Positions 21,032 to 23,961 of a stretch of 64,000 nt of DNA are shown piece after piece (the first letter of the stretch is position 1; each line of letters starts with the position of its first letter). The stretch comes from Sphaerotilus sulfidivorans (GTDB lineage Bacteria > Pseudomonadota > Gammaproteobacteria > Burkholderiales > Burkholderiaceae_C): the NCBI RefSeq assembly GCF_013426975.1, contig NZ_JACCPY010000022.1, positions 1 through 64,000 of the forward strand, read 5' to 3'. Both the position numbers and the translations under genes were made by a program. The notes beneath the pieces are model-generated. The model searched no databases. It saw nothing but the letters and a program-made list of their open reading frames with translations, and was not told the origin of the DNA.

Positions 21032-22150
<1,119 letters not shown>

Positions 22151-22232
22151 CTTCGTGTTCCTGGGAGAGTCGTGTGTCGGGTGTCGGATGCAGATTCGGG
22201 ATGCGGAAGACCGGGGGATCCGGGCGGCGGCC

Positions 22233-22260
22233 AAAAAAAAACCGCCGGGGATCCGGCGGT
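22233..22260 (-). terminator. Attenuator terminator upstream of aroG
   Basis: On the minus strand ACCGCCGG (22260-22253), loop ATCC, and CCGGCGGT (22248-22241) make an 8-bp stem, extendable by AA/TT, followed by an uninterrupted T run (22240-22233). It lies after the leader peptide stop (22289) and 82 bases before the aroG ATG, so termination here would silence aroG. Confidence 0.9.
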
Positions 22261-22315
22261 TTCCTTGGAGCGCTTGCGGGCTTTTCAGCTACGCGTGGGC
22301 CTCTCCTCCGCCGGT
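22253..22315 (-). promoter_or_regulatory. Candidate antiterminator pairing in the aroG leader
   Basis: The leader segment CCGGCGG (minus, 22314-22308) is exactly complementary to CCGCCGG, the 5' arm of the terminator (22259-22253). The adjoining GGAG (22306-22303) can also pair with CUCC (22270-22267), lengthening the helix. Pairing would prevent the terminator. A ribosome stalled at codons 6-8 would leave the segment free; a full fold has not been computed. Confidence 0.6.
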
Positions 22316-22363
22316 GCGGTGCGAGAACCAAAAGTAGCCAAAAAAGAAGGCAAAACGCTTCAT
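22289..22363 (-). CDS. Aromatic (Phe-rich) leader peptide for aroG attenuation
   Basis: A 24-codon ORF that starts MKRFAFFFGYFWFS and stops with TAG. Codons 4-13 contain six Phe, one Tyr and one Trp. Four of the six Phe codons are TTT, which is notable in such a GC-rich genome. It begins 8 bases after a -10 hexamer, with no Shine-Dalgarno, so it may be translated from a nearly leaderless RNA. It is followed by a candidate antiterminator and a strong terminator before the DAHP synthase gene. By analogy with pheA, pheST and trp leaders, slow translation when charged tRNA-Phe is scarce should permit read-through into aroG. The peptide itself probably has no other function. Mechanism is inferred from layout. 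Confidence 0.85.
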   Translation of the reverse strand: MKRFAFFFGYFWFSHRTGGGEAHA

Positions 22364-22371
22364 GGGGGTCG

Positions 22372-22400
22372 AATGTAGAGAGGCCGCGTGGCCGCGTCAA
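22372..22400 (-). promoter_or_regulatory. aroG: Sigma-70 promoter of the aroG leader (TTGACG-17-TACATT)
   Basis: On the minus strand TTGACG (22400-22395) and TACATT (22377-22372) are separated by exactly 17 bases. The hexamer ends 8 bases before the leader ATG at 22363, so transcription should begin within a few bases of that codon. It lies downstream of the tldD stop (22472) on the same strand. Confidence 0.75.
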
Positions 22401-22471
22401 CCGGAAATCTCTGGAGCAGGGGCGATGTCGGCTCCGGGCGACGCAGGCGCAAGCCTGCCGTCAGGCCCGGC

Positions 22472-23935
<1,464 letters not shown>

Positions 23936-23942
23936 GCGATGC

Positions 23943-23961
23943 ATTCTAGGTCCGCCACAAT
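23943..23961. promoter_or_regulatory. Overlapping divergent -10 elements of tldD and dinB
   Basis: TAGAAT on the minus strand (23948-23943) is 7 bases before the tldD ATG at 23935. CACAAT on the plus strand (23956-23961) is 6 bases before the dinB ATG at 23968. Both starts lack a Shine-Dalgarno. The 32-base gap leaves no room for conventional leaders, so both genes look leaderless. Confidence 0.5.

Follow-up and report, generated by a model that had tools for sequence, protein, structure and literature searches.

How is expression of aroG, which encodes a type I 3-deoxy-D-arabino-heptulosonate 7-phosphate (DAHP) synthase, controlled in Sphaerotilus sulfidivorans? We addressed this question in a stretch of 64,000 nucleotides (RefSeq assembly GCF_013426975.1, contig NZ_JACCPY010000022.1, positions 1 to 64,000; hereafter the window), in which a promoter, a short open reading frame (ORF) rich in phenylalanine codons, and a strong hairpin precede aroG. 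Judged from sequence and modelled folding, this element very probably controls aroG by ribosome-mediated transcription attenuation. A run of end-product codons lies in a short ORF before a biosynthetic gene, an intrinsic terminator is recognizable by sequence and fold between leader and gene, and modelling together with covariation points to an antiterminator that excludes the terminator and would be freed by a stalled ribosome. An earlier note on this DNA had proposed such a layout, and its coordinates for the promoter, the 24-codon ORF, the codon positions, and the terminator were correct (Table 1). It had also described a CCGGCGG segment complementary to the 5' arm of the terminator; the complementarity holds, but the segment lies inside the ORF at codons 17-19 and not after it.

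The proposed sequence of events is as follows. Transcription would start at or beside the leader AUG, and a ribosome initiating on the 5' end of the leader would trail RNA polymerase. When charged aromatic tRNA, above all tRNA-Phe, is short, the ribosome would stall in codons 4-13 and cover segment 1, so that CCGGCGG and GGAG would pair with CCGCCGG and CUCC (the 2:3 antiterminator); the terminator would then not form in time, and aroG would be transcribed. When charged tRNAs are plentiful, the ribosome would cross segment 2 and leave, the 1:2 hairpin of the control codons with the stop-codon region would re-form, and the terminator would end transcription.

Table 1. Features of the aroG leader locus in the window
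Feature	Position	Strand	Description
sigma-70-type promoter	22372..22400	-	-35 TTGACG 22400-22395, spacer 17, -10 TACATT 22377-22372
leader peptide ORF MKRFAFFFGYFWFSHRTGGGEAHA	22289..22363	-	24 amino acids and stop; conserved in relatives
control codons 4-13	22325..22354	-	6 Phe, 1 Tyr, 1 Trp; within leader ORF
segment 1, outer helix strand UUUGGCUAC	22334..22342	-	pairs with 22292-22284
segment 1, inner helix strand UUCUC	22323..22327	-	pairs with GAGAG 22305-22301
segment 2 core CCGGCGG, antiterminator 5' strand	22308..22314	-	inside leader ORF, codons 17-19
1:2 hairpin 3' strands	22284..22305	-	GAGAG 22305-22301; GUAGCUGAA 22292-22284, includes leader stop codon
CUCC, second antiterminator helix	22267..22270	-	with GGAG 22306-22303; predicted from fold and partner energies in 82 species
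segment 3, terminator 5' arm ACCGCCGG	22253..22260	-	alternative partner of CCGGCGG
segment 4, terminator 3' arm CCGGCGGU and U-tract	22233..22248	-	
aroG, type I DAHP synthase	21032..22150	-	372 amino acids

The folding of the leader with and without a stalled ribosome was modelled for the RNA made before the 3' arm of the terminator. Without a ribosome, the antiterminator probability in the window was 0.00, and stalling at codon 6, 8, 10, 11, 12, or 13 raised it to 0.98, 0.99, 1.00, 1.00, 1.00, and 0.85, respectively, in agreement with the earlier note, which had named this comparison as a check. As codon 10 is Tyr and codon 12 is Trp, each of these could in principle trigger the switch. Among 170 leaders, 167 were modelled (3 were dropped), and in 161 of them, the antiterminator probability exceeded 0.5 with a ribosome stalled in the middle of the run, the mean rising from 0.37 to 0.94. 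A median of 11 nt separates the last aromatic codon from GGCGG, approximately the distance that the footprint of a stalled ribosome leaves free.

Comparison of the regions upstream of aroG in relatives, where a loss of the aromatic codons from loci keeping the terminator had been named as refuting the proposal, instead favored it. The comparison covered 109 upstream regions, including a few duplicates (e.g., L106 = L054 and L107 = L047), and comprised 80 named loci, 29 loci of relatives, and the window locus, minus L051, where the contig ends at the gene start. An aromatic leader ORF was found in 104 (103 by script and L035 by eye); it was missing in four Polynucleobacter loci and one Cupriavidus second-replicon copy. 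Five near-duplicates were then removed, as was L036, where a terminator was not apparent; all 97 remaining leaders had GGCGG or AGCGG (the terminator 3' arm) followed by at least four T on the 3' side of the ORF. The Polynucleobacter loci are split, since L071, L072, L077, and L079 are without leader and the metagenome-assembled genome records L044 and L048 retain it. L018, L026, L034, and L053 carry GGCGCAGGAGTGG in place of the usual GGCGGNNGAGAGG, accompanied in L026 and L034 by matching changes ahead of the terminator. The 18-residue leaders of L009, L012, L052, L082, and L091 terminate right at segment 2 (...GG, stop); there, unlike in the window, the antiterminator strand would be covered by a ribosome that has reached the stop codon. 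L058 (2339-2467) comes from a gammaproteobacterial record, Solimonas sp. SE-A11, and its aroG and leader were placed among Comamonadaceae in the tree, which reflects either transfer or contamination.

We next consider the covariation of the paired segments. In 82 sequences, 8 of 9 pairs of the 1:2 outer helix, which joins control codons to the stop-codon region, were changed on both sides, with 66.3% of cells paired, and the inner helix UUCUC:GAGAG was paired in 93.7% of cells; the terminator was almost invariant. For the 1:2 plus terminator structure, no more than 1 of 500 shuffles did as well on each of five measures, and 84.2% of cells were paired, compared with 43-51% when slid. Duplexes were also more stable between own than between swapped partners of 82 species, both for 1:2 (-15.99 versus -14.27 kcal/mol; 0/2,000 permutations) and for the extended 2:3 pairing (-6.79 versus -6.13; 0/2,000 permutations), and the control 1:3 duplex gave no significant difference (321/2,000 permutations). 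Comparison among families shows CC|GGCGG associated with CCGCC|GG and CT|GGCGG with CCGCC|AG (0/5,000; 1.40 versus 1.26 pairs with one sequence per family) in a test that left out 20 of 180 rows whose anchors were not exactly found. RNAalifold alone recovered only the terminator. One natural compensatory case was seen at L111 (1280-1424), where three segments had changed jointly (leader AGCGG, 5' arm CCGCU, and 3' arm AGCGG). Conserved stretches such as UUUUGG fall outside the modelled helices.

Within the window, the aromatic residues of the leader are Phe at codons 4, 6, 7, 8, 11, and 13, Tyr at codon 10, and Trp at codon 12. The terminator reads ACCGCCGG-AUCC-CCGGCGGU and is followed by nine U, the last at 22233. 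The region 22200-22400 folds more stably than shuffled sequences (z -2.76; 2 of 200 shuffles as stable). A simple terminator scan of the region reported 0 sites; we suppose that the stem perhaps runs into the U-tract. TTGACG-17-TACATT was the sole promoter-like site in 22000-22700 by a consensus scan (shuffles, mean 0.0, standard deviation 0.2), and transcription is predicted from it to start within ~2 nt of the leader AUG.

This spacing recurs. In the window's family, 6-9 nt separate the end of the -10 hexamer from the leader start in 81 of 82 leaders, with starts picked in knowledge of the -10; when starts were chosen without regard to it, 70 of 82 were identical, and the gap was 6-9 nt in all 70. 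Among the 97 leaders of relatives, the -10 is TACATT in 71 and, with starts again picked in knowledge of it, precedes the leader start by 6-8 nt in 95. Shine-Dalgarno-like tetramers were found in 0 of the 82 leaders and in 7 of 88 leaders of the order's other families, compared with 49 of 61 aroG starts. As to those other families, denoted here by f numbers, the -10 was in place, again with starts chosen with it in view, in f4 (8/9), f13 (9/10), f23 (10/11), f44 (8/10), f10 (6/10), and f30 (1/2); it was absent at all 34 loci of f3, f8, f11, f20, and f32. The strict -10 pattern occurred in 0 of 16 loci of other classes, and a looser one (CTA.. or TTA.., mostly CTATAT) occurred in 15, 13 of which had TGACA ~15 nt further up. 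With the -10 at 6-9 nt before the leader ATG and the Shine-Dalgarno sequence absent, leaderless translation is predicted in the window's family and several others, and MKRFAFFFGYFWFSHRTGGGEAHA is probably translated in this way.

We also examined which amino acids the leaders would read. Among 181 leaders counted (one a duplicate, L124), Phe was present in all, Tyr in 92%, Trp in 70%, and all three together in 67%; in the other-class set, all three occurred in 16 of 16 leaders. Trp was found in 97% of leaders of the window's family and 11 of 11 of f23, and in 0-12% of those of f4, f8, f20, and f44. Seventeen of the 82 window-family leaders fell outside the pattern for the usual Trp context, some of them mere edge cases of the pattern, and 14 of the 17 still had Trp. 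The order and identity of the aromatic residues vary among families (FFFGFF, FYFYFF, FWYYF, and FFFFFYF). TTT made up 61% of Phe codons in leaders versus 17.5% of those in aroG, and its share was higher in the leader in 75 of 82 genomes; the codon choice of the leader may serve the RNA helices as well. This composition suggests that Phe is the common signal and that Tyr and Trp are likely sensed in some lineages; the additional sensing of Tyr and Trp, raised as a possibility in the earlier note, appears plausible.

The distribution of the element was examined with covariance models. Model R1, built from 82 leaders, gave matches with E ≤ 0.01 in 183 of 399 genomes from the order, the own genome included. 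Of the 109 best R1 matches (window excluded), 99 immediately precede aroG; these are spread over 14 families and include all those with E < 3e-6; the other ten (E 3.1e-6 or worse) were taken as chance terminators, as was the match at L250. In the family f32, 78 of 100 genomes matched at E ≤ 0.001; for 71 of these, the match spanned the full model with E 1.2e-8 or better, and the downstream gene was a DAHP synthase gene in 6 of 6 newly drawn genomes checked. One f32 genus with replicons of 3.4-3.5 and 1.4-1.8 Mb has the leader MSFAKFFYFYFWHLAPLAEGEGRLQQK, and 0 of 7 genomes matched in another with 1.7-2.1 Mb. A coarse scan of ~500 nt upstream, in one genome each, found no such leader with terminator in f2, f5, f6, f9, f14, f17, f18, f19, f21, f22, and f24, nor in the single genomes of f10 and f11; L240 (f22) gave a terminator-like match only (19.3 bits). 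The own genome encodes a second DAHP synthase, 60% identical to the aroG product, whose locus (L002/L243) was rejected as leader-bearing: it has a short ORF, MNQKNITTFFTWEQ, and a terminator was not found. Other R1 matches in this genome (E 0.65-8.35) were indistinguishable from chance.

Beyond the order, model R2 gave strong matches in 7 of 369 genomes of the class sample, 3 from the window's family and 4 from two other gammaproteobacterial families, the latter four preceding a DAHP synthase 60-63% identical to the window aroG product. Another 23 of the 30 matching genomes had weak matches only (8.6e-6 or worse), mostly at the terminator end, and were set aside. In the phylum sample, R2 matched 52 of 378 genomes at E ≤ 1e-4. 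Forty-five matched over the full model: 19 belong to the order and 5 to f63, and the other 21 come from four families outside the class (f251, f255, f258, and f262). The remaining 7 matched the 3' part of the model only and were left aside. At all 18 phylum loci inspected, 16 of them from other classes, the leader lies upstream of a DAHP synthase 55-63% identical to that of the window, and in the alphaproteobacterium Paracoccus pantotrophus DSM 2944, the element precedes the DAHP synthase gene with 44.8 bits. No credible match was obtained in Escherichia coli, Vibrio, Neisseria gonorrhoeae, or Burkholderia multivorans, nor at the Cupriavidus second-replicon copies, a Variovorax plasmid copy, or Polynucleobacter L071, L072, L077, and L079. 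By these matches, the element is common in Burkholderiales and patchy elsewhere. The element for which the earlier note had envisaged a different regulatory route in Burkholderiales is not confined to that order.

Published reporter data from another species, Ralstonia solanacearum, bear on this proposal by analogy. In rich medium, aroG1-lacZ rose from 47 to 702 Miller units upon deletion of aroG2 and was 316 with 1 mM Phe, and aroG2-lacZ rose from 49 to 1,072 upon deletion of aroG1 and was 353 with 1 mM Phe (PMC6379268). Loss of the other isozyme raises the reporters 10- to 22-fold, and 1 mM Phe then lowers them 2-3-fold. Both reporters were high in the double mutant (469 and 706), and the words attenuat-, leader, and terminator are absent from the available text (PMC6379268). 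These data would suit, in part, a sensing of aromatic supply.

Several results weigh against attenuation of aroG as outlined above. The full-length window RNA favors the terminator despite a stalled ribosome (terminator probability 1.00), which calls for a kinetic switch. When a ribosome at rest on the stop codon is modelled as a footprint-only block, the antiterminator probability is still 0.95 in the window and 0.45 on average; termination therefore probably needs ribosome release and 1:2 refolding, or transit. Moreover, 61 of 167 leaders favor the antiterminator without a ribosome. The CCGGCGG:CCGCCGG core gave no covariation signal within the window's family (54 of 500 shuffles show as high a paired percentage), two flanking 2:3 positions pair poorly in f8, f23, f30, and f44 (fractions 0-0.6), and the permutations and shuffles leave relatedness partly in the covariation statistics. 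Finally, the R. solanacearum reporters stay low when their own gene is deleted (58 and 84), though aromatic supply should fall, and Phe changes the wild type little (47 to 40) (PMC6379268). A plain attenuator does not predict these last two results, and attenuation alone leaves the first of them unexplained.

Three other explanations were weighed. The ORF could be spurious, the hairpin being the terminator of the upstream gene at 22472-23944 and aroG having its own downstream promoter. That gene, which we take to be tldD-like, is on the same strand and ends 71 bp before the -35 box, as this explanation would have it; however, the gene and the terminator are separated by a promoter and a conserved aromatic ORF. 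The ORF recurs with the terminator ahead of aroG across 14 families as well as in other classes, covariation is seen for segments 1:2 and 2:3, and the consensus scan of 22000-22700 found no second promoter. We consider this explanation extremely improbable. It is also very unlikely that the ribosome is stalled by a TnaC-like arrest of the nascent peptide in response to free aromatic amino acid and not to uncharged tRNA. The nascent chain is rich in aromatics, and TnaC itself is a precedent (see also PMC8429421), but the order and identity of the aromatic residues differ among families, and a stall caused by free amino acid would switch the gene on when supply is plentiful, which is ill-suited to a biosynthetic gene.

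An explanation compatible with attenuation is that the terminated leader RNA or peptide also acts in trans and that this drives part of the conservation. Sinorhizobium meliloti rnTrpL and peTrpL are precedents in the available passages of PMC7298713 and PMC10117765, and stretches such as UUUUGG, conserved outside the helices, would be in keeping with it. The cis layout and the codons, however, account for the conserved segments, and we regard such a trans role as unlikely.

The history of the element allows a more tentative proposal, namely that in Pseudomonadota this group of DAHP synthases was originally controlled by an early leaderless attenuator reading all three aromatic tRNAs, which the enteric/Vibrio and Neisseria aroG lineages then lost, TyrR/TrpR of E. 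coli being a replacement. In an unrooted tree of 54 chosen DAHP synthases, which leaves out 11 families found without leader by the coarse scan, the leader label needs 4 changes versus 9.4 in shuffles (0 of 500 as low), and E. coli, Vibrio, and Neisseria group together among leader-bearing sequences. This pattern fits early presence with losses. The patchy presence speaks against it, with strong matches in 7 of 369 class-sample genomes, 3 of these from the window's own family, and we hold such an early origin to be rather doubtful.

Taken as an attenuator, the element offers a hypothesis for the control of carbon entry into aromatic biosynthesis in many Burkholderiales, together with some alphaproteobacteria and some other gammaproteobacteria, to which the E. 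coli model is not transferable. It bears on Phe-repressed aroG expression that was published without a mechanism, it suggests leaderless translation as a recurrent start mode for attenuator peptides, and covariance models are supplied for a leader without a gathering-level Rfam 15 match in the scanned loci. The earlier note had called the element undescribed. For aroG this stands in Rfam 15 and in the open-licence literature searched, in which we found no description of an attenuator before aroG, with mention possible in comparative attenuation surveys outside that search (Vitreschak et al. 2004; Lopatovskaya et al. 2010); it does not stand for DAHP synthase at large, as aromatic attenuation is known in Corynebacterium and has been suggested for aroF of Vibrio and Shewanella.

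The best Rfam match to the window was RF01859 (Phe_leader), aligned end to end with 22.0 bits and E 0.19, below the gathering cut-off of 55, and no attenuator family reached its gathering score (Rfam 15) in the window or in 12 loci of other families. Like the window element, the E. coli pheA leader (RF01859) has a Phe-rich leader ORF, alternative hairpins, and an intrinsic terminator. Its control run is not known to contain Tyr or Trp. Single leader peptides with codons for several end products are known from E. coli ilvGMEDA and thrABC, where branched-chain amino acids or Thr and Ile are read, unlike Phe, Tyr, and Trp in the window leader. As far as the available text describes it, the pheA leader controls pheA and not a DAHP synthase gene.

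S. meliloti trpL (rnTrpL/peTrpL) is a leaderless leader-peptide mRNA starting with AUG, according to passages of PMC7298713 and PMC10117765, a start mode that is predicted for the window; it differs in being a Trp attenuator before trpE(G), whereas the window element is Phe-dominant and precedes aroG. Attenuation has been proposed for a proteobacterial DAHP synthase gene in Vibrio (PMC1173090, Table 7) and Shewanella (PMC2659441, Table 3), where putative attenuators precede the Tyr-sensitive aroF. Likened by description, these concern another isozyme (with tyrA in Vibrio), a Tyr signal is named for Shewanella, and the passages concerned describe no comparable aromatic leader. The nearest functional precedent is aroR-aroF of Corynebacterium glutamicum, in which, as the available passages have it, an aromatic leader peptide (Phe-Tyr-Phe) lies before the DAHP synthase gene and responds to Phe limitation and not to Tyr (Neshat et al. 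2014, as described in PMC11802643 and PMC4046766). The two share an aromatic leader peptide ahead of a DAHP synthase gene and, on a likeness drawn from those descriptions only, differ in phylum and in the shorter aromatic run of aroR.
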